Shown here one piece after another: positions 1 to 30,689 of a stretch of 64,000 bases of DNA (the stretch's first letter is position 1; each line of letters starts with the position of its first letter). The notes under the pieces were generated by a model. The model was not told the DNA's origin, searched no databases, and worked only from the letters and a program-made list of their open reading frames with translations. Origin of the DNA: Chthoniobacteraceae bacterium (GTDB lineage: Bacteria > Verrucomicrobiota > Verrucomicrobiia > Chthoniobacterales > Chthoniobacteraceae). Made by a program: the position numbers and the translations under genes. Where the stretch lies: positions 1 through 64,000 of the forward strand of contig JAQGOL010000007.1 in NCBI GenBank assembly GCA_028293625.1, given 5' to 3'.

Positions 1-559
1 GAAGGACTTTCCCTCGCCGATCAAGGCTTCAAGCACGCCCAGATATCCGCCACCGGACGGCCGCCTTACAACCCGGGTGATCTGCTGCGGCTCTATGTTT
101 ATGGTTACCTCAACCGCGTGCGTTCCAGCCGGCAGTTGGAGAAAGAGGCCGGGCGCAACCTTGAAGTCATTTGGCTGATGCGCAAGCTCAAGCCTGATTT
201 CAAAACCATCGCCGATTTCCGCAAGGACAACGGCGCCGCCATCAAGGGGGTGTGCCGGCAGTTTACCCTCCTTTGCCGCAAGCTCGATCTCTTTGGGGGC
301 GAACTGGTGGCAATCGATGGAAGTAAGTTTCAGGCCCAGAACTCCAAGGACCGCAACTTCAGCCAGAAGAAGCTCCGAGCTCTCCTTGAGAAGATCGACG
401 CGAGGGTTGAGAGTTACCTTGCCGAGCTGGCTGAGGCCGACAAAACCGAGGAGCCGCCTAAGGCTGACACTGCTGCGAAGAAGTCCGGCGCCCTCTCGCT
501 CAAGAAGAAGCTCGAAGCGCTAAAGGATCGGCAGGGTCTCTACAAGGAACTGCTCGCCG
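1..559 (+). pseudogene. IS1182-like transposase, N-terminal part (cut by left edge, truncated 3')
   Basis: Frame 1 is open from the first base; the gene starts outside the window. The protein has the N-terminal helical region of IS1182/IS4-like DDE transposases (RPPYNPGDLLRLYVYGY, then RLEK-type RSSRQLEKE) and the first catalytic Asp region (VAIDGSKF, codons near 308-331). A Lys-rich coiled insertion follows (about 355-540). Homology stops around base 555, where the reading enters sequence that is the antisense of a neighbouring gene, so the second and third catalytic residues are absent. The frame runs on to 696 only by chance. It cannot encode an active enzyme. Family assignment is from motif recognition. 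Confidence 0.75.
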
Positions 560-1203
560 GCGGTGCCTTTGTCATGCTCAACAATCAAAAACCGGCGCAG
601 GCCGGTTGCACGGAGTGTGTGTGCCGACTCCTTTCCGTCCTGCGTCAGGCCCGTTCGCGCGGTCATCGGACTTGGAACAATCAACGCCAGCTTTGACAAG
701 TCGCCGCGCAGCTCCTCACGTGACAACGTAGCAAAACGCGATTTGCTTTCACCAACGCACAGCAATGGATCGCCAGGAAAGAGAAGATCAAGGATCGCCT
801 CCGCATCGGCTGTGCTCTCTGGGCTCAATTCCTGCAGGACTGCAACAGTTGCACCCATCGTGGCAATTACAGCTTCCCTGCGGGCCGGATCGTATTCCGG
901 CCATACATAGCGAGATTGCCGCACGGCGTGTTGCTGACTCGAACCAACTTTCAAGAGGTCGCGGCCAGGACGAGCGCTTCGAGTAATAGCGCGCTCAATT
1001 TCATTTGGTTGGAGCGGTTCGCCTGCCGTCGCACTTGTAAGGATTTCCAGAATTTCCGCCGGCGTGCGATGCCCTTGAAGCATCAGCGCGGTTTTGTAAA
1101 TCCATAGATTCAAACCGTCCCCGCGGGCAGGTTGCTTGGCGATCTGGGCTTCAATACCCGGCGGCAGCGATCGCATCGCCCCGGCCTTATAGTGTATAGT
1201 CAA
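520..1203 (-). pseudogene. Primase-like island protein, 3'-truncated
   Basis: About 215 native residues are readable. The N-terminus (MRSLPPGIEAQIAKQPARGD; preferred start at 1176, alternative 1203) and the motifs LIVPSPMTARTG and RRFLIVEHDKGT match, from memory, a hypothetical protein common on verrucomicrobial integrative elements and related to primase/polymerase N-terminal regions. Family members continue roughly 100 residues past the DKGT motif. Here that part is lost at about base 555 and replaced by antisense transposase sequence, giving a foreign tail of about a dozen residues. It lies downstream of the helix-turn-helix gene and integrase on the same strand, as in a compact int-xis-rep module. 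Probably non-functional. Confidence 0.65.
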
Positions 1204-1375: not shown

Positions 1376-1618
1376 TTATGCGGAGACTTCCCGGACGGTC
1401 AGCTTCTTGATTGCCGCTTCAACTGCTGTCGGTGAATATCGGAGCGTGCGGTGTCCCAATCGACACACAGGAAGGAGTTTGCGCCGAGTTAAGTCAGCGA
1501 GGACGCGCCGGCCGATATTCAGCCGCGCGCAGAGTTGGTCAGGGTCTAGTAAATCGAGATCGGCCATAGAGTGCTTTGGGTTACTTGTCGGCACTATAGC
1601 AGGCTCATTTTTACCCAT
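1376..1618 (-). CDS. Small helix-turn-helix DNA-binding protein (excisionase/AlpA-like)
   Basis: A protein of 80 residues, or 63 if the second Met (MADLDLLDP, start near 1567) is used. The pattern DPDQLCARLNIGRRVLADLTRRKLLPVCRLG, a helix-turn-helix followed by a wing ending in RTLRYSPTAVEAAI, is that of MerR-like/AlpA excisionase proteins. These bind element DNA and either direct excision or regulate the integrase. The gene lies between the broken integrase and the truncated primase-like gene on the same strand, which fits an element-encoded regulator or Xis. Two imperfect 22-bp direct repeats lie 45-100 bases upstream and could be its binding sites. Confidence 0.6.
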   Translation of the reverse strand: MGKNEPAIVPTSNPKHSMADLDLLDPDQLCARLNIGRRVLADLTRRKLLPVCRLGHRTLRYSPTAVEAAIKKLTVREVSA

Positions 1619-1660
1619 TCTTACCAGAGTTTGCAGACAATGGACCTCCTGCCCTTTAAG

Positions 1661-1715
1661 TTGCCTTAACTGTGCAGCAACCTAACATTGAACTTGCCTT
1701 AACTATGCAGTAACC
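1661..1715. repeat. Pair of imperfect 22-bp direct repeats
   Basis: TTGCCTTAACTGTGCAGCAA followed by CC (1661-1682) recurs as 1694-1715 with two substitutions, a spacing of 33 bases (about three helical turns). A partial third copy (TGCATTAACCC) follows. The pair sits just upstream of the helix-turn-helix gene start, inside the integrase-to-HTH gap. It may be an operator or an Xis/Int arm-type site; the function is inferred from position only. The rest of the gap 1716-1926 is AT-rich and shows no gene. Confidence 0.6.
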
Positions 1716-1926: not shown

Positions 1927-3129
1927 TCATCCGGCCGCCTCAATTGATACGACCTTGCTCGCTTCCGATTTTGGAGCAATCGCCCAGAACTTTGCCGCAT
2001 CCGCCTTCTTTACGGCCCGGTGATAGTGCATGTGAAGCACCTCCAAGCCGCCGACGTGGCCCATATACAGGGCGAGTTTCGTCAGGTCATTGTGCTCGGC
2101 CAGCCAATAGGAGGCATAGCTATGCCGGGCAGCGTTCTGCTGCCATCTCACTTTGGCTTGCTTGAATAATTCGCGCAGATGTCGGCGCAGCGTGTTGTAA
2201 GTTCGGAAAGGCAGGACAAAACCGTTTCCGATGCCGTGCTTTGAAATGTAATGCTCCAGCCACGCGCGCAGCGTTGGAGTGATAGGAACAGATCGGCGAC
2301 GCTCGCGCTTTGTGATGCTGGCGGGCAGATCAATGCTTCCTTCAATGAGATCCACGTGCTTCCAGTCCAGCTGCATCAATTCGTAAACACGAACGCCGGC
2401 GAACAGTCCAATGGCGACAAATGGAAGAAGCTGCGGGTCGTGCATGTCGGCCGCCTTCAGCATGGCTGTTGCCTCATTTACAGAATAAATTTCCCTCTCC
2501 GCAATTTTCACCCGCACGAAATCAAGCCGCGCAACAGGATTTTCTGTGCACCATCCTTTTTAAACGGCGTAAGCGAAGATCGCCCGGATCTCGCGAAGCA
2601 AAGAGTTTCGGTAAGTGTCTGCCGTTTTTAAGAGCAGCTTCTCGATTTCCTCCGCCGTGATGTCTCCCACCATGACTTCATGCAGCGGCTTCAAACGCGT
2701 CTGCGTGCGAGTCAGGGAACTGATATACTTTTCGCTTCGGCGCTTGGAGGCGAGAAATGCGGTAATCACTTCCAGCAACGGCCGCGACTCCCGCCGGCGC
2801 CGCTCGCTTGCCAGATAGCGCTTCACGACCTGAAGGAGTCCAATGTCTTCACCCGCATCTTCAAGAAGACGAATTGCTGCTTTGGCTTGCTCCGCCTCGG
2901 TTGGTTTAAGGAGTTGTGCCGAAAGGCCGTAATTTTCTATTTGCACGCCCAAGGCGCGCACGAACCCCTCTGCTTCAGCCTGCGTCTCGAAATACCGACG
3001 CTGCCGAACACCAGTTCCGGAGTGCTTGGCGGGAATATTGACCCCCACCCTTTTGCCGTGTGCTTGATCTCGTAATTCGCAACGCGAGCCATTCCCCATT
3101 GGTGCCCGAACTGCCTTAATCATCAACAA
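1927..3129 (-). pseudogene. Tyrosine recombinase (phage-type integrase) with one in-frame TAA
   Basis: The frame is open from 3129 to 2563, hits TAA at 2560-2562, and continues in the same frame to the natural stop at 1927. The codons around the stop read GTT TAA AAA GGA TGG, where relatives have an aromatic-Ala-Val-Lys-Lys-Gly-Trp turn, so one AAA-to-TAA change explains it. Together the two parts give a full-length protein of about 400 residues: an N-terminal arm/core-binding region (SAM-like, to about 189), then the catalytic domain. The catalytic domain has box I Arg (AGVRVYEL), box II ARHSYASYW (Asn in place of the first His of HxxR), MGH, and the tyrosine region HMHYHRAV. It lies 70 bp from a partial tRNA-Thr, the usual arrangement for such elements. 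A 203-residue C-terminal fragment could be made from an internal start but would lack the DNA-binding arm. Confidence 0.8.
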
Positions 3130-3198
3130 CTATTGCAAACAATAGGGCTTCACAATCAAGCACCAGCAAGGAGAACAGCTTTTTGCCCCGCTTTGCCC

Positions 3199-3247
3199 GC
3201 TGATTTGTAATCAGCAGGTCGTCGGTTCGAACCCGTCTGCCGGCTCC
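3199..3247 (+). other. 3' half of tRNA-Thr(UGU); presumptive att site at element border
   Basis: The sequence folds as the right half of a tRNA. It has an anticodon stem GCTGA/TCAGC (3199-3203, 3211-3215) with 7-base loop TTTGTAA (anticodon TGT), variable bases AGGTC, a T arm GTCGG-TTCGAAC-CCGTC (one T:T mismatch), and the 3' acceptor strand TGCCGGC plus discriminator T. Bases to the left do not form a D arm or 5' acceptor strand, so this is not a complete tRNA gene. Element integration leaves such a duplicated 3' half at one end. With the integrase immediately left, the element is to the left and the chromosome to the right. Confidence 0.75.
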
Positions 3248-3253
3248 CTCTGT

Positions 3254-3276
3254 AACTCTTTATGGAATAAAGAGTT
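3254..3276. terminator. 10-bp hairpin just after the tRNA half
   Basis: AACTCTTTAT and ATAAAGAGTT form a perfect 10-bp stem with a 3-base loop. It lies 7 bases past the tRNA 3' end, where a tRNA terminator would sit, but there is no T-run after it. It may be the original tRNA-Thr terminator left on the chromosomal side. Confidence 0.4.
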
Positions 3277-3431
3277 GCGCAGGAGGTTAAACTCCGAATT
3301 GTCCGTGCCCTTCTTTTTGCTTGGACACTTCTTGGCCATTTTCGAGCTCTATGAATCGATCAGGTCACCCTGACATCTCAAAAATCCAAGACTCTACGTA
3401 TCTGATAGGCCGCAAGCTTTTCGAGCCGCAT

Positions 3432-3671: not shown

Positions 3672-3799
3672 AGGGTGTGCGAAGTCGCCATTAAGGCAGA
3701 ACTGCCGATTACCCGGTGGTGTGGGGGACCGGAGGTTTCAGGCGCTGAAAAGTAGCCACTTATCTTTCCAATGGGATGGAAAAACGCCACGCTTCGCCA

Positions 3800-5341: not shown

Positions 5342-5676
5342 CGTTTGGCGAAGTCGTAATGTGCTCGAGACCGGCTTCGATCATAAATGATGTTGTAGCC
5401 GCCGCCATTGCTCCAGCTCTTGTTGCAAACCGCCTTGGGGACAGGCAAATAATGAATCGCAAACGGCCTACTGCTACCCCAAAGCGATTCGGTCTACTCC
5501 CTGATGGCAGGCATATCCGCAAGACGGATCAGCTCTTCAGCTACGGCTGACCGTCCGGCGAGATGAGCAGATACTGCTTCGGCCAAGAAATCAGCAGCGG
5601 CAGCGATTTCAGGTATCGGAAGGCAGGTGCGCAAGATCATGCTGGGAGCGGCAATACTTTTGTCCATTGGTTGCAA
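5338..5676 (-). pseudogene. Fragment of an HNH-endonuclease-associated protein, with in-frame TAG
   Basis: The frame from 5676 carries RTCLPIPEIAAAADFLAEAV, then RSAVAEELIRLADMPAIRE. I recall this N-terminal signature (CLPIPEI...LIRxADMPAIREWTxSLWG) from a family of HNH-type proteins. At 5494-5496 a TAG stands where the family has Trp (TGG to TAG), and the same frame then continues TESLWGSSRPFAIHYLPVP before a second stop at 5338. The HNH part itself is not seen. Best read as a decayed 5' fragment; the family name is from memory and unverified. Confidence 0.4.
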
Positions 5677-6002
5677 GAGTTCAGCGCAACAGTCCGCTTG
5701 AAGCTATCTATTCAGGTCGCACTACTGAACCTCAACAACAACGCGCACAATAGACCTCGATCGGAACCGTAACTTGAAATGCTCCAGGACGGCTGCTTTT
5801 GAAAACGCCAGCGACGCGCGCACCGAAATCTTCGAATATATCGAGGGCTACTACAACATCGATCGCTAACATTCTTCCATCGGATATAAAACCAGAGCCA
5901 GTTCGAAGCCCGGATTCGCGCAGCACAATAACGCACAAATGGTCCAGAAATCCGTTGCACCTCGCCACTCCCAAAGCAGAATGGCGCACAGAAAACAGAC
6001 CT

Positions 6003-6386
6003 ATGAACAAACTCATCACAATTCTCGTCGCATTCGCCTTCGCGAGCACCGCCATGGCGGCCAGCTACTCCACCAAGGCAACCATGACACGAGAAGAACA
6101 CAGCGCCAGATACGCCGTTGCTGTTCGGGTCTCGAAGTTGGTTGAGCGAGACGGCAAAGTCATGGAGCACGTCATTTGCCTGCCACATATTATCTGCTCA
6201 CCCGGCGTGCCAGCATTTATTTCCTCGGGACAGGCTGTAAATCCCTACACGGGGAAGGAGAGTGTAAGGATCGATATTTCGTGGCCGAAGACGGTCAGGC
6301 CAGACTTTGCCGTTTGCACGGTTGCCATCAAACTTGGCGACACAATCGTCTCGAAGACCAAAACGAAAATGGCGGTAGAAGAGTAG
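6003..6386 (+). CDS. Small secreted protein of unknown function
   Basis: A protein of 127 residues starting at MNKLITILVAFAFASTAMAA, a textbook signal peptide. The open frame extends 68 codons further upstream but that part is Arg/Ser/Thr-rich and non-coding in character, so the start at 6003 is chosen. The mature part is about 105 residues with two Cys (HVICLPHIICSPG) and a later Cys (FAVCTVAIKLGDTIV) and looks beta-rich. No domain recognised. It is monocistronic and flanked by gene fragments. Bases 5677-6002 upstream show no gene I can support. Confidence 0.6.
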   Translation: MNKLITILVAFAFASTAMAASYSTKATMTREEHSARYAVAVRVSKLVERDGKVMEHVICLPHIICSPGVPAFISSGQAVNPYTGKESVRIDISWPKTVRPDFAVCTVAIKLGDTIVSKTKTKMAVEE

Positions 6387-6485
6387 TGATGTGGCGGGCG
6401 CTGACATGCAGCATGCCGGCTTTCGTGGGCCGCTTGCAAAAGCCGATGCTGCCCATCGGCTGCATCGCTCTCAATTTAACATGCG

Positions 6486-6851
6486 GTGATGGAAATGGAT
6501 TCGGGAACCCTCTTATTCGATCGAGTGATCAGCTCAATCTTTGAATCTGCACAGGAGAACACTCTTGAAAACCAGGATCTCGCCACTCTTCGCGACACGC
6601 TGCTGCCGAAGCTCCTGAGTGGAGAGGTATCGGCGGTGAAGCCGGCCTTGGCACGCCCGCAGCCTGAAAGCCCCTCAATGTCCAAGATCCTCGAATCGCA
6701 CTTTGAAACCGTGATGCCAGCCTTGCTGGCGAAGACCAGCTCCCCCTGTCTGGACGGCAACTCCTTCGCGCCCACCGCATCTAAGGAATGGGAGAACTAT
6801 TACGCGAATGTGCCTGCCGGCCGCCGGCGCGCTGCGACTCGGCGGTATTAA
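6486..6851 (+). pseudogene. hsdS: Orphan C-terminal tail of a type I restriction specificity subunit (HsdS)
   Basis: The start of the frame, FDRVISSIFESAQEN followed by TLRDTLLPKLLSGEVSA, is the characteristic C-terminal end of HsdS subunits: the last conserved helix after the second target-recognition domain, ending in TLLPKLLSGE. Nothing upstream encodes the recognition domains, and no hsdM or hsdR is nearby. After about residue 50 the frame runs on for 70 residues of unfamiliar sequence rather than stopping where HsdS normally ends. It is a relic of a lost restriction-modification system. Confidence 0.6.
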
Positions 6852-6996
6852 TCCCGCGTTGCCGCCGGGGGAAACCGCCTTGGGAGAGGCAATTAGTGAA
6901 TTTTCCGCAAAGCTTCAATGGGCTTCGAATTTTAACATCAAGGATGTCGGTTACCGAACTATGAGTTCTGCCACTCGACAGGCGAAGCAATGCTTA

Positions 6997-7479
6997 TTAA
7001 ACCGATGAAACTGGTAAGCTCCCCGGGCTGGCAGCCGAGTCGATATTTCGGAGCCTTTTCCAGTTATAAATCAGAGGTATTTGGATAAGTGTCCCAGCCA
7101 GAAAACAGAATATAATATCGGCAACGAATGTCGGGTGCATTCTCGTGTTCAGCTGATTGTTATAGGCCGCAGCTGCCAGCGTGATCCCAATGACGAAGTG
7201 AAAAGGCCCCAGAAGATAAATCAAGGAGGCAAACGTCTTCGGTCGCACGCATGCGAGGATGGAAGCGATTCCGATACATCCGAAGACCGAGGATGCCATT
7301 CTAAGCCAGTAATCGAACATAGGCCGGTAAGCTATTATCCCTGCGCCCATTCCGTACAGTTCATCTGCCGCCACCTTCCATGAAGCAAACGTAAAGTAGA
7401 ACGAGATCCCCCATCCGATGGCGCTGACCAGCAAACCAAGTTGGAGCGTATTGAGCCATCCGCGTGTAGTTGGTATCAT
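6997..7479 (-). CDS. Four-helix inner-membrane protein of unknown function
   Basis: A protein of 160 residues with about four hydrophobic segments: near 14-34 (LGLLVSAIGWGISFYFTFAS), 58-80 (MASSVFGCIGIASILAC), 85-106 (LIYLLGPFHFVIGITLAAAA) and 118-138 (FVADIIFCFLAGTLIQIPLI). A short Ser/Pro tail follows. The topology suggests a small integral membrane protein. No family recognised and no operon partner is visible. Confidence 0.6.
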   Translation of the reverse strand: MIPTTRGWLNTLQLGLLVSAIGWGISFYFTFASWKVAADELYGMGAGIIAYRPMFDYWLRMASSVFGCIGIASILACVRPKTFASLIYLLGPFHFVIGITLAAAAYNNQLNTRMHPTFVADIIFCFLAGTLIQIPLIYNWKRLRNIDSAASPGSLPVSSV

Positions 7480-7875
7480 TTATAGGTAATTGTTGTATAG
7501 AAACATGCTTTTGGCGAATGCCGTTTTGCCGCGCTTTAACGGATTTATTTTTAGTCAAACGTTTCAAAATCCAGCAAGGGCAGCTGTCGCGCCCGACGTG
7601 GTCGGATAATCGCTTCTTCGAGGCGCGCGTCTGAGGAAGGGTCCTGTCCATCCGCGAGCTGACGCGTCTTCTTGAACTGGCAAGGAATCCGCTTTCGACA
7701 ATTTCCTCTGATATTGAGCTGATAAAATGCCGCTGCATATCCAAGCTGCTATTGCCCGCCATTCTTCTTCCCGATTTTGGCGGTTCCGTTTTCTCAGGAG
7801 TTGATCCGTGGAGAGAGGAGAGCCGCCTTGGAAGAAATGATTCCGCAGCGGCTCGGTTCCCTGTTATCACGCGCA

Positions 7876-8030
7876 AATTCCCTTGCACAGACGGTGAACT
7901 CCTTGTTCTGAGCAGCAAATTCGCTGTCGATGCCCGCGAACTCCTTGTCATTGCCGGCAAACTCCACGACAGCGCGCACGGGTTGGCTGTAAGCCGGCAA
8001 AGATTCCCCGGCGGCAGGGGCAATCTGCCA
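7876..8030. repeat. Degenerate 21-bp tandem repeat, 5-8 units
   Basis: An AACTC/AATTC core recurs exactly every 21 bases at 7876, 7897, 7918, 7939 and 7960; weaker copies fall at the same phase at 7981, 8002 and 8023. A typical unit is AACTCCTTGTCATTGCCGGC plus A. On the minus strand the units read as a degenerate heptapeptide (EFAGNDK, EFAGIDS, EFAAQNK, EFTVCAR, EFARDNR). The repeat lies inside 7480-8177, where no convincing gene is seen on either strand; open frames there are best explained by the 21-bp (multiple of three) period. Confidence 0.7.
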
Positions 8031-8177
8031 GTCAAGGGGGCGGATTCCGCTGAACCCGGGAGCGGACTCTCCGCAGGCGCTCTGAACCTTGCAAACACTC
8101 ACCGCAGGCCGGCGAACAATTCTCCCCGAGCGTCCTCCCCGACCCGCTCCGAAAATCCAGCCACGCGGCTACTTTAA

Positions 8178-8607
8178 CCAAATCCGAGGAATTCGGAAAC
8201 TAAAAGAGGAGTTCGGCCTGACTCATTTGAAGACCGGCACCGGCTTGGCTACACCGCATATTGACCCTGGCAACTATCGTTTTTGCGCTTTGAGCAGATT
8301 GCTCTAAAAAACCACGCCACTAACTCTGCCAATAGTCCGCCGCGCCTTCCGGCCACGCTGACCCGCATCTGCAGCCGCTGCCATTGTTACATACCAATTC
8401 CGCGACGCCTCTAGCGTAGTATTATTACATCATCATTACTTACAGCGCATTAGATAACATATGGGAGACTTCTGAAAAAAATGGCGAATACTCGAAAATT
8501 AAACTGATTCATGAAATTAATTTAATTTCAAATACCCGTATGTTTATTTACTGCATTATATGCATCCGGATGCGTCCAGATATTATATGAGCCCGGATTG
8601 ACTATAT
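8178..8607. other. AT-rich intergenic region
   Basis: No gene is seen. From about 8400 the sequence becomes markedly AT-rich compared with its surroundings (runs such as GAAATTAATTTAATTTC at 8513-8529, itself an inverted repeat of GAAATT). It leads into the EF-hand protein gene, so it probably holds that gene's promoter. Confidence 0.5.
8562..8573. promoter_or_regulatory. 12-bp perfect palindrome upstream of the EF-hand gene
   Basis: GCATCCGGATGC is a perfect palindrome 35 bases before the start codon at 8608, within the AT-rich leader. It could be an operator half-site pair; function is only inferred from symmetry and position. Confidence 0.3.
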
Positions 8608-9036
8608 ATGAAGCTACCATCAAATTCTATTGCGTTCGCAGCAGCTCTCTTACTCCCACTTGCAACCTTTGCCCAAAGCTCCGGAAGTGGAACCTCCGGA
8701 ACTGGAAGTTCAACCGGTACCGGATCTGGTTCGGGCGCCAGCGGCTCAGCCACAGGCACTGCGGGATCCACTACCCCCAGTGCTGGTGGAGTAGCTTCCG
8801 GTGAGGCATTGTTCCGACAGTTCGATACCAATGGGGACGGCCAGATCAGTCGCGATGAGTTTCGCTTGGGATGGACATCCATGCATCAGGGCAGTGGCAC
8901 AGGCACATCGGGCACAGGCACATCGGGCACAGGCACATCCGGCACAGGCACATCCGGCACAGGCACATCCGGTTCAGGCACATCCGGTTCAGGCACAGGC
9001 ACAGGCACATCCGGTAGTGGTAGCTCGTCAAAGTAA
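8608..9036 (+). CDS. Secreted EF-hand protein with Gly/Ser/Thr repeats
   Basis: A protein of 142 residues. It has a signal peptide (MKLPSNSIAFAAALLLPLAT, then FAQ), a Gly-Ser-Thr-rich stretch (about 24-70), one EF-hand loop DTNGDGQISRDE (about 74-85; all calcium-ligand positions present), then a tail of pentapeptide repeats GTGTS/GSGTS up to the C-terminus. The single EF hand suggests calcium binding, or pairing with another copy. The repeat tail resembles extracellular low-complexity linkers or glycosylation targets. A strong hairpin terminator follows. Role unknown; a matrix or surface function is a guess from composition. Confidence 0.75.
   Translation: MKLPSNSIAFAAALLLPLATFAQSSGSGTSGTGSSTGTGSGSGASGSATGTAGSTTPSAGGVASGEALFRQFDTNGDGQISRDEFRLGWTSMHQGSGTGTSGTGTSGTGTSGTGTSGTGTSGSGTSGSGTGTGTSGSGSSSK
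8896..9012 (+). repeat. 15-bp coding tandem repeat (pentapeptide GTGTS)
   Basis: GGCACAGGCACATCG or -TCC is repeated at 8896, 8911, 8926, 8941 and 8956, then as GGTTCAGGCACATCC at 8971 and an expanded copy at 8986-9012. The near-identity at DNA level suggests recent slippage expansion, so copy number is likely variable between strains. Confidence 0.85.
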
Positions 9037-9050
9037 GCCCCTATTAATAT

Positions 9051-9080
9051 CGCCCTGCACAAATAAACTTGTGCAGGGCG
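9051..9080 (+). terminator. 12-bp hairpin after the EF-hand gene
   Basis: CGCCCTGCACAA and TTGTGCAGGGCG form a perfect 12-bp stem around a 6-base loop, 14 bases past the stop codon. There is no U-tract after it, so it may act as a transcript-stabilising or weak bidirectional terminator. Confidence 0.6.
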
Positions 9081-9740
9081 CTTGGGCGCTGGACTTGTCG
9101 TGTCTGCCTCCGCATCAAAGCCGGCGTGCATTTTTTCCGGTGTAATTTTCCAGAGGTGCTTTGGATGTTCACCAATGGATCGATCTGCAGGCGCAAGAAT
9201 ACGTCGATGGTATAAGCGCGAGTAGTTCAAAAAAGAATGGCCGCCTTCTTCGCAGTTAGCGAGCAATAGGCGCCCTTAAAAAGCAGTTAGCTTTTTTACT
9301 TAAAAAAGTTTTTTTGTTACTCCGTTCGTAGTCCTTCATCGGGTGTGCCGCCAATTGGATGTATTCCTACATAAAGGGCACTCCACCGGTTGCGCTGCAT
9401 GCCAGGAACTTCGCCACGCCGAAGTCTGACAGGTGAGAACCCGCAGGGTTCAAAGCCTGTAGCAGGCCGGTCGAGCCCGCCGGAACTAATTTTGTGCAGA
9501 GCCTGACCTAAAGGGCGTCGCAGCAGATGTTGCGATTCTTCCATACCGAAGGACACCGCGCCTTCCAGGGTCAAAACGCCTGGGTTCCCAGTTCCGGCAG
9601 TCTCGAAGACTCGAACGCCGGCTACACGCTGGGATCTTTTTCAGGGGCATCCGCATGCCGTCCACGGCTTATGGTGTACTGTCGATTCGCTGTGTGGCCC
9701 CCTAAAACATTGGGAACACCTTCCCGTCCACCCTTTATCC
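9081..9740. other. Gene-poor region
   Basis: Short frames on both strands (for example minus 9317-9574 and plus 9527-9766) have no signal peptide, motif or consistent composition. I see no supported gene here. Confidence 0.4.
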
Positions 9741-10010
9741 TCAGGGCACTGGACGATTACGATTAAGAGATTGGGCTTCTTGATGTATCCAATGGGCGGT
9801 ATGCCCGGCAGCTCGTCGTCTGCTGAGGTGGTTTTCCGCGTAAAAAGAATCTATCAGATCAGCATTGGCAAGCTGGGTAGCCCGGAGTTCCACCGTCATT
9901 GAGTCGAAGTTCGCCGAGTTGAAAGGGGTGCCGGGCACCACCTTGAGACGCTGATTCACGAAGGAAATGAGCGCCGGGTAAAGTGTGAAAAGCAGTTTAC
10001 CAGTGTCAGG
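9741..10010 (-). pseudogene. Gene relic of unknown family
   Basis: The minus frame is open from a TAA at 10011 down to 9741 (90 codons). Its first half reads like real protein (GKLLFTLYPALISFV, then LKVVPGTPFNSANFDSMTVE), vaguely like the C-terminal part of an atypical NAD-binding epimerase/NDUFA9-like protein. It has no ATG (only a GTG at 9959) and a stop directly upstream, so it is probably the 3' remnant of a decayed gene. Confidence 0.25.
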
Positions 10011-10259
10011 TTAAAGCAACATAGCGACATGCTATTGATTGTTAACAAAGAGTTAGCTCATGCTCTCTTCTTCGATGCACCGCTGCCTGAATATTGATAC
10101 CTGGCACGAAGAAACCAGCTCCGAACGAAGTCGAATTGGCGGCTCCGTGAAATTAGCCATACGGAAGCTGCTGCTTGCTCCGGGTGAAGATGAGCAATTT
10201 TACAATTCTCTTACGTTTACATGACAACTCGGGTCGGCACTTGGTTGACACTTGTTTTT

Positions 10260-10715
10260 ATGAAACTAATTCTCAGAGCCGTGGTGGTTCTCCTGGTCTG
10301 TGCAGCCCCCTTGATTCACGCCGCTTCGGACACAGATGTAACCCTCATCAAAGTGGAAAAAGTCGTCATCGAAGAAAGTGTGATCACCATCGTCGTCACC
10401 GAGGCGAAGACGCGGATCACATTGATTCGAGAGGATTACGATCCCGCATTTACCGGGGATACATGGCATGGAATGCCGGTCACGAGAGTTCAAGTCATCT
10501 CCAACAAGGCTATATTCACAATCAAACGAGGCGCTGAAGCCGCGCCAGGCGGGCCGTTGGAAAACGCGTGGCAATCTTCGTTGAAGACGGCCAGAGAATT
10601 GCAGGATGGAAAGGAAGTCGACCGTATTGCCTTCTATGAACCGGACATCGTCATCAAAGGGAACATGATTGATTCCATCACAGGCTCCGGGTTTCTCATT
10701 CCGAAGGTAAAATGA
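10260..10715 (+). CDS. Small secreted protein of unknown function
   Basis: A protein of 151 residues from the Met starting the signal peptide MKLILRAVVVLLVCAAPLIH (A-A-S cleavage); an in-frame Met 13 codons upstream adds a non-signal-like leader. The mature part is beta-rich (VEKVVIEESVITIVVTEAKT; DIVIKGNMIDSITGSGFLI). No recognised domain. It precedes the PTS IIA-like gene by 32 bases and could be cotranscribed with it. Confidence 0.6.
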   Translation: MKLILRAVVVLLVCAAPLIHAASDTDVTLIKVEKVVIEESVITIVVTEAKTRITLIREDYDPAFTGDTWHGMPVTRVQVISNKAIFTIKRGAEAAPGGPLENAWQSSLKTARELQDGKEVDRIAFYEPDIVIKGNMIDSITGSGFLIPKVK

Positions 10716-28952: not shown

Positions 28953-30689
28953 CTAATTGCCTTCGTCTCTTTCGACCCAGAAGTTTCCAAGCACAAGCAC
29001 ATCCATTCGAGTCCGCAGCATACAGCTTAGCGCTTGTTTGGGTGTCTGGACGATCGGCTCGTTTTCATTGAGCGAAGTATTAAGTAAAATCGGAACGCCA
29101 GTCCGTTTCCTAAATGCCTCAATTAAAGCGTGGTAAAGAGGATTTGTCTTTGTTGAGACCGTTTGCAAGCGGCCGGTCCCATCCACATGGACCACCGCCG
29201 GGATCTCATCGCGCTTTTCACTCCGAACAGTTAATACTTTTTCCATCGAAGGTGACGGCTCTGCAGCTTCAAACCAATCCCCTGCATACTCTTCAAGAAT
29301 GCTTGGAGCAAACGGACGGAACTTTTCCCGGAACTTAATCTTGAGATTGATGATTTCCTGCATGTCCCGCCTCCGGGGATCGGCAATGAGCGATCGGTTC
29401 CCCAATGCGCGTGCGCCGAACTCCATCCGGCCCTGGAACCATCCGACGACCTTCCCTTCAAGAAGCGCATCAATCGTCTTTTCTATGAGAGGCGCTTGTT
29501 CCATTCGCTCACTTCTGACAGGTTCGCCTTCGATCGCCGCCAGGCATTCGCTCTCGCTCGCTTCATCTCCCCAGTATGCGTGATCAAGCACGAAGGATCG
29601 CGGTTTTTTAAGTCCACGATGCCATACATGGAAAGCAGCACCCAGTGCCGTCCCGTTGTCAGCCGCTCCTACCGGAACGAATACATGACGGAATGGAGTA
29701 TTTCGACTGACTTTTCCATTGGCGACGGAATTCATAGCCACACCACCTGCCAGGCAGACCTGGTCGACCGGATACTTGGCGTGGAGCCGATTCAGAAGGT
29801 GGAACACGATTTCCTCGGTTACCGCCTGAAGCGAAGCCGCGATGTTTTCGTGCTTCTTGGTCAGCTCCGCGCGCGACACGCGCGCCGGTCCCAATTCTTT
29901 TTCCAGGCGCGCACTGTGAAACGGATTAACTTGCGGTACTCCGCCGTTCCAAGACATGGCGATTCCCTGCCGATGATGAGTAAAGTAATCAAGATTGAGG
30001 GCAAAGGTATCACCTCGAGGGAAAATCAGCCGGCGAAAAAACTCAAGATACTCGGGCTCCCCGTATGGCGCCAAACCCATCACCTTGTATTCATCGCCAT
30101 AAGCCGGAAAGCCAAGGTAAAGAGTGATCGCATTGTAAAGCAATCCGAGTGAATGCGGATAGTAGACCCGATCAAATTCAGTAATCTCCAACCCTTCTCC
30201 ACCCGCTAGTAGAGTGCTGGTAAAATCGCCCATTCCATCCACGGATAACACAGCAGATTTCTCGCTCCCGCTGACAAAAAAGGAACTTGCGACGTGCGCA
30301 AGATGATGTTCGACGTGATGAAACTGTGCGCGAATTTTCTCAGGAGCACAGCCAGCGGCCTCCGCAAACTGCGCAGGCAGACCCGCCACCTTCGCCTGAC
30401 GCTGCAAGCGTCCAAGTGCGCGTCGCAGCATCCCGGGCTGTTTTAAAGTGAATAGAAGCTTTCGGCCAAGGTTTGCACGCGGATCAAAGGAGAGCGCGAC
30501 ATGGTCAACGTCCCCGGCGGAGATGCCGCCGAGCTTCAAACATTGTCGAATCGATTCAGCTGGAAACCCCGCCCAATGCTTGATTCGGTTGAAACGTTCT
30601 TCCTCGCAGGCGGCCACCAGTTGACCGTCCTGAATTAGTGCCGCCGAAGAGTCGCCGTGATATGCGTTGATGCCTAAAATATTTACCAT
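28953..30689 (-). CDS. Carbamoyltransferase (NodU/CmcH/TobZ family)
   Basis: A protein of 578 residues, full length for the family. The N-terminal Kae1-like fold starts GINAYHGDSSAAL (His11). The metal-binding His cluster is at 124-129 (HHVEHH) with Asp151 in SVDGMGDFTST and Asp344 in VGAADNGTALG. The C-terminal YrdC-like part has WFQGRMEFGARALGNRSLIA (417-436) and NTSLNENEPIV. It uses carbamoyl phosphate and ATP to O-carbamoylate a sugar. Its place between a glycosyltransferase and an acyltransferase indicates that the polysaccharide or one of its precursors is carbamoylated. Confidence 0.92.
   Translation of the reverse strand: MVNILGINAYHGDSSAALIQDGQLVAACEEERFNRIKHWAGFPAESIRQCLKLGGISAGDVDHVALSFDPRANLGRKLLFTLKQPGMLRRALGRLQRQAKVAGLPAQFAEAAGCAPEKIRAQFHHVEHHLAHVASSFFVSGSEKSAVLSVDGMGDFTSTLLAGGEGLEITEFDRVYYPHSLGLLYNAITLYLGFPAYGDEYKVMGLAPYGEPEYLEFFRRLIFPRGDTFALNLDYFTHHRQGIAMSWNGGVPQVNPFHSARLEKELGPARVSRAELTKKHENIAASLQAVTEEIVFHLLNRLHAKYPVDQVCLAGGVAMNSVANGKVSRNTPFRHVFVPVGAADNGTALGAAFHVWHRGLKKPRSFVLDHAYWGDEASESECLAAIEGEPVRSERMEQAPLIEKTIDALLEGKVVGWFQGRMEFGARALGNRSLIADPRRRDMQEIINLKIKFREKFRPFAPSILEEYAGDWFEAAEPSPSMEKVLTVRSEKRDEIPAVVHVDGTGRLQTVSTKTNPLYHALIEAFRKRTGVPILLNTSLNENEPIVQTPKQALSCMLRTRMDVLVLGNFWVERDEGN

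Follow-up and report, generated by a model that had tools for sequence, protein, structure and literature searches.

The half tRNA-Thr(UGU) found near the left end of the window, the whole 64,000-base stretch of DNA analysed here, is likely to be the core of an attachment site lying at a seam where two elements, both inserted at this tRNA, meet. The window covers bases 1-64,000 of contig C37 (137,553 bp), which belongs to an assembly (G000) of 6.83 Mb and 43 contigs. The contig begins at window base 1, within a transposase gene, and the far end of the left element, with its predicted complete tRNA, is therefore out of view. tRNA-Thr(UGU) is a recurrent insertion point in this bacterial family, and the site described here probably represents a routine junction between stacked insertions and not a chromosome edge. 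The features discussed are collected in Table 1.

Table 1. Features at the left end of the window (positions in the window)
Feature	Position	Strand	Remarks
Transposase ORF, DUF772 domain	1..696	+	PF05598, E 4.6e-16; truncated by contig start
Element protein, function unassigned	520..1203	-	relatives near integrases of same group
Small helix-turn-helix protein, weakly excisionase-like	1376..1618	-	PF12728 HTH_17, E 8.1e-7
Two 33-bp direct repeats, 79% alike	1648..1713		between HTH gene and integrase
Tyrosine recombinase (integrase) gene	1927..3129	-	PF00589, phrog_1; start aligned with relatives 3099
Half tRNA-Thr(UGU), likely attachment-site core	3199..3246	+	anticodon arm, T arm, 3' acceptor strand
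Inverted repeat CCTCTGTAACTCTTTAT/ATAAAGAGTTGCGCAGG	3247..3283		directly after half tRNA; 82% complementary
Tandem 11-bp repeats GCTTGGACACT / TCTTGGCCATT	3319..3340	+	putative integrase arm-type sites (P' arm)

The half tRNA-Thr and the element to its left

Positions 3199-3251 match an intact tRNA-Thr(TGT) gene of the same genome (G000:C5:12087-12160, minus strand, detected by ARAGORN) in 52 of 53 bases, a match that, with an E value of 1.6e-19, is not due to chance. The 48 bases that form the half tRNA are identical to the C5 gene with zero changes, the single mismatch, at 3247, being the first base beyond the tRNA. This match bears out the parts of tRNA-Thr(UGU) that an earlier, sequence-only reading of this DNA had recognised in the fragment. 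Identity starts in the 5' strand of the anticodon stem and the stem-loop GCTGA-TTTGTAA-TCAGC is therefore whole. The 5' half is absent, as a whole tRNA was not found in the window by ARAGORN or by Rfam at gathering scores, and the Rfam tRNA model applied to 3186-3245 reached 18.7 bits only (cut-off 29), with unrelated bases fitted as a 5' half. The 5' half whose detection by covariance-model scan the sequence-only reading had named as a refutation was thus not found.

The gene adjoining the half tRNA belongs to the integrase family, its C-terminal part matching PF00589 (E 5.5e-14, at 1930-2517) and the phrog_1 integrase (E 2.7e-20). The frame is broken by one in-frame TAA at 2560-2562, absent from the sequence-only reading, both parts sharing one frame, and given this codon the window integrase is probably inactive. 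The gene points away from the half tRNA. The distance of 70 bp between the two that had been noted previously holds when measured from the longest ORF start at 3129 but becomes approximately 100 bp when the start at 3099, which aligns with relatives, is used. Identity of the window integrase to seven integrases adjoining half or intact tRNA-Thr ranges from 28 to 38%. When genome contigs were scanned, the window integrase gave no match and the L060, L055 and L056 integrases gave 3 matches; the latter three gave no match in viral contigs. The integrase scan also detected 9 phage records and 3 partial plasmid matches at 24-27%.

Leftward from the half tRNA, the recombinase is followed by the helix-turn-helix protein, the 520-1203 protein and the transposase, which runs off the contig end. 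The helix-turn-helix protein matches phrog_66, excisionase and transcriptional regulator, at E 9.3e-4. The 520-1203 protein gave no above-threshold Pfam match and matched no PHROG, and is related to a frame in L073 (42% over 116 aa) and to one in L057 (32% over 84 aa), loci which each carry an integrase match near tRNA-Thr sequence. The transposase ORF, which we take to be IS1182-like, appears to have been inserted in the 520-1203 gene.

Window positions 3185-3260 were matched in 48 of 57 genomes, the own genome included, several of them with two to four matches. We compared 46 tRNA-Thr copies, drawn from 40 stretches of relatives, representing part of the matched places, together with the window, C5 and C38. 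By ARAGORN these divide into 18 halves and 28 intact genes, with L066 and L080, the latter a tRNA-Thr(CGT), counted as intact. The identity of the halves with intact genes ends in the anticodon stem-loop. An integrase match starts 5' of the half, within approximately 150 bp and pointing away from it, in 8 of the 18 halves (the window, L049, L050, L051, L055, L056, L060 and L065, L051 being cut by a contig end). Three relatives have, on a single contig, an intact and a half tRNA-Thr that face the same way and are separated by 3.0-5.7 kb (L071 on G004:C22, L063 on G009:C3 and L072 on G037:C16). An integrase is located between them, adjoining the intact tRNA, in L072; seven integrase queries detected none between the intact and half tRNA-Thr of L063 and L071. 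Between the intact and half tRNA of L071, at 5365-10396, an AbiEii/AbiEi-like pair, an FtsK-like gene and an HTH plus ImmA/IrrE-like pair were noted by eye.

There is good support for identifying the half tRNA as the putative scar left when a tyrosine integrase acted on a tRNA, one such integrase being adjacent and the same layout recurring in relatives. The sequence-only reading is thus supported in regarding the fragment as the remnant of integration into a tRNA 3' end and in placing the integrase-bearing element to its left.

The sequence to the right of the half tRNA

The sequence at 3247-3345, judged from its similarity to other genomes, is probably not plain chromosome. Positions 3246-3345 align with the sequence downstream of the intact tRNA-Thr in G008, which belongs to a different genus, with a local alignment score of 72 compared to a maximum of 36 among shuffled sequences (n=500). 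The two flanks share a 22-base identical run and the same order of features, an inverted repeat followed by tandem repeats. The previous claim that the boundary between chromosome and element is fixed at approximately 3250 is not upheld, as the bases beyond this point align with element-end sequence. Element-end sequence is thereby present on both sides of the tRNA fragment, the integrase on the left and a P'-type flank on the right.

A 17-base pattern, GCTTGGACACTTCTTGG, with at most one mismatch, yielded 8 matches in 40 family genomes and 1 in the reversed control. All 8 matches occur in attachment-site contexts, that is, at tRNA-Thr, at tRNA-Arg or in an integrase gene. They are found after intact tRNA-Thr in G004 and G008, after intact tRNA-Arg in G005, after half tRNA-Arg on contigs C25 and C32 of the own genome, approximately 150 bp ahead of the half tRNA in the G004 element, in the window, and in G031, where the match is within an integrase ORF near its start (phrog_1, E 3.6e-25). 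The pattern was derived from the window, G008 and G004, and 5 of the 8 matches are therefore independent.

When tandem repeats scoring at least 9/10 were counted at a spacing of 9-14, a range chosen after viewing the flanks, they were present behind 20 of 45 tRNA-Thr copies and in 1 of 86 control windows. The 20 comprise 9 of 18 halves and 11 of 27 intact copies with a full flank, L061 having been omitted on account of a flank truncated at 42 bases, and the spacing is 11 in 18 of the 20. The repeat pair of the window itself, at 8/10, falls under the cut-off and is outside the 20. These comparisons make it probable that the repeats at 3319-3340 belong to a second element, located to the right, as its integrase arm-type sites (P' arm). 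The inverted repeat between the half tRNA and the tandem repeats has a perfect 10-bp stem, the longest among the 46 flanks. As a general feature of the flanks, a hairpin was rejected, being only weakly enriched (17 of 46 flanks compared to 14 of 86 controls), and since the flanks are mutually related the Fisher values overstate independence.

If only one element were present, to the left, native chromosome would begin at approximately 3250, a reading which we consider improbable. Long ORFs, at 3776 and from 11248 on, are in its favour, as is the absence of any mobile-element family in Pfam for five ORFs searched between 3776 and 10712, and the halves of L063 and L072 are likewise followed by sequence lacking such tandem repeats. 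Further in its favour, contig C37 contains one half tRNA-Thr, and a search of the whole 137.5-kb contig found no second (the next best match being 13 bases), no further repeat site at under 4 mismatches in 20 (the nearest has 4, at 28973 on the minus strand) and, with seven integrase queries, no second integrase. The alignment of 3246-3345 with the flank of an intact tRNA-Thr in another genus counts against native chromosome, as does the occurrence of the repeats at tRNA-Arg sites and in an integrase ORF, since a native flank is not expected at two different tRNAs. Native chromosome to the right of 3250 was therefore set aside as the main reading in view of the G008 alignment and the contexts of GCTTGGACACTTCTTGG. 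The lack of a second integrase counts against a complete tandem array but not against a remnant, as a decayed member would lack one. Because no second half, repeat site or integrase was found on C37, the right-hand element is known from approximately 100 bp only.

The 3776 gene was considered as a route to the empty site and rejected, as it has distant matches only (24-35% identity, in 4 of 33 other genomes) and no match in the three genomes of the same genus; a 55% paralogue is present in the own genome. The ORF at 6486-6851 of the window resembles, by eye, a fragment of a type I restriction specificity subunit and has no Pfam match. The G031 integrase had no match in the own genome in a search performed without a positive control.

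The probable ancestral tRNA locus and other tRNA ends

Upstream of the intact tRNA-Thr on C5 are three genes, acetyltransferase-, glycosyltransferase- and thioredoxin-reductase-like by eye, which are collinear with G010 and G042, and C5 is therefore probably the ancestral tRNA locus. Two possible links between C5 and C37 were rejected. The transposase sequence at window 1-640 is present in a single copy in the assembly, and the C5 repeats, TTACTGCCTG/TTACTGCCCG, are no closer to the sequence left of the half tRNA than unrelated arms are, the best match of 8/10 being equal to that of several such arms. In this comparison of 8 left flanks with 16 arm pairs, 9/10 matches arose also between unrelated flanks and arms, and only the 10/10 matches (L071, L049 and L065) therefore carry weight.

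The arm comparison also bears on a reading of the half tRNA and both its flanks as the attP of one element, for example in circular or duplicated form, which we regard as very improbable. A core with the integrase side on one flank and repeats on the other does have the layout of attP. However, the left flank lacks right-type repeats (none at up to 4 mismatches in 20, and 8/10 at best for any arm), unlike the G004 element, which has the same repeat on both sides (10/10), a comparison which is weak given the 9/10 matches with unrelated arms; in addition, no element genes were recognised on the right. A decayed tRNA gene or tRNA-like fragment with no tie to integration, with which the lack of a whole element in view on C37 would agree, is strongly disfavoured and has a negligible chance of being correct, as the 48 bases are unchanged, their identity ends at the same anticodon stem-loop as in other halves, and an integrase adjoins as in relatives.

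Motifs at other tRNA ends were also observed. The own genome carries two half tRNA-Arg(ACG), L127 (G000:C25:821-952) and L128 (G000:C32:8590-8728), with GCTTGGCCACTTCTTGG repeats approximately 73-80 bp after each half; the intact tRNA-Arg(ACG) on C21 (L136) has no such repeat site. Contig C38 bears a further half tRNA-Thr, degenerate (93%) and approximately 440 bp from a tRNA-Val. In this region (G000:C38:167991-168574) the tRNA-Val(GAC) and the degenerate half are on one strand and TGAGGGACTTAC occurs after each. All three own-genome matches to TGAGGSACTTAC immediately follow a tRNA or a half tRNA. The 12-mer GAGGGACTTACG (L097-L112) was observed after copies of tRNA-Val(TAC), tRNA-Gly(CCC), tRNA-Thr(CGT) and tRNA-Thr(TGT). 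A family-wide excess of GAGGGACTTACG was rejected, with 16 matches in 40 genomes compared to 21 in the reversed control. Its position is non-random, 13 of the 16 exact matches following a tRNA or half tRNA by no more than approximately 12 bases; 8 of these 13 are the tRNA-Thr(TGT) copies that yielded the motif, leaving 5 independent. A phylum-wide pattern of hairpin plus GAGGGACTTACG was also rejected, the hairpin form being unseen outside this lineage in the phylum sample; 6 of 288 genomes were matched, fewer than in the reversed control (22). Among these matches only that of the own genome directly follows tRNA sequence, and one other has a tRNA-Asn end approximately 50 bp away on the opposite strand.

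Proposed stacked insertion at one tRNA and comparison with known systems

Combined, the two flanks are most simply accounted for by stacked insertion at one tRNA followed by decay. Integration of the left element would have regenerated a complete tRNA at one of its ends, the half tRNA remaining at the other, beside the integrase gene. The inverted repeat and the 11-bp repeats would then represent the left end (P' arm) of another element using the same tRNA, an element that may since have decayed, and the repeats, as putative arms of a bipartite (lambda-type) attachment site, would be predicted to bind an integrase through its N-terminal domain. The order in which the two elements were inserted may be read from this arrangement only provisionally, and the intact tRNA on C5 may head the array.

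The arrangement belongs to a known type of system. Of the 3919 islands in Islander (PMC4383910), 3760 carry a 3' fragment and 2083 use an anticodon-centred site, and 125 tandems of two or more are recorded. The window shares with such islands a displaced 3' tRNA fragment, a tyrosine integrase beside it and a crossover in the anticodon region, the anticodon-centred subsite of Islander, and tandem arrays are a listed class. Unlike Islander islands, the integrase is broken, the far end is off the contig and the second member is an attachment-site end only; Islander requires a fragment and an integrase for each member. The proposed history of stacking and decay resembles CIME/IME accretion, in which a decayed element keeps its att ends and another is inserted at the common core (PMC5704250). 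It differs in that the right-hand member is visible here at one end only.

The right flank also resembles the attP regions of cluster K mycobacteriophages (PMC3203893). In CrimD, pairs of 11-bp arm-type repeats flank the core and a putative stem-loop is located between the core and one arm; in Pixie, the arm sites are mostly in direct orientation and attB overlaps a tRNA-Lys gene. Unlike CrimD and Pixie, the host, sequences and integrase are other, and arm function here is putative. In the phage collection, the best match to an integrase was that of Akkermansia phage Chantilly (ON453895.1), with 28.8% over 93% of the query. The Chantilly genome end (L142, 1-46) resembles, by eye, a 3' half tRNA-Asn(GTT) and is close to the integrase gene. 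The tRNA is thus different, and the Chantilly integrase is on the 3' side of the half tRNA whereas the window integrase is on the 5' side. In a limited literature collection, no paper was found on Verrucomicrobia integrative elements at tRNA-Thr, on attachment sites of Akkermansia phage integrases at tRNA, or on Verrucomicrobiota genomic islands with a tyrosine recombinase at tRNA.

A more tentative suggestion, which we hold at somewhat less than an even chance, is that these elements may share a modular attachment site in which arms and core evolve separately. Tandem 11-bp GCTTGGACAC arm sites would be retained as the core switches between tRNA-Thr(UGU) and tRNA-Arg(ACG), the second motif, GAGGGACTTACG, being found within approximately 12 bases of tRNA-Thr, tRNA-Val and tRNA-Gly ends. 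If this is the case, newcomers with the same arms could adopt or mobilise decayed ends. The stacked arrangement would also correct a likely annotation error, as the chromosome does not necessarily begin at a tRNA fragment that adjoins an integrase. Such repeats following tRNA 3' ends could mark the ends of elements, even decayed ones that lack an integrase.
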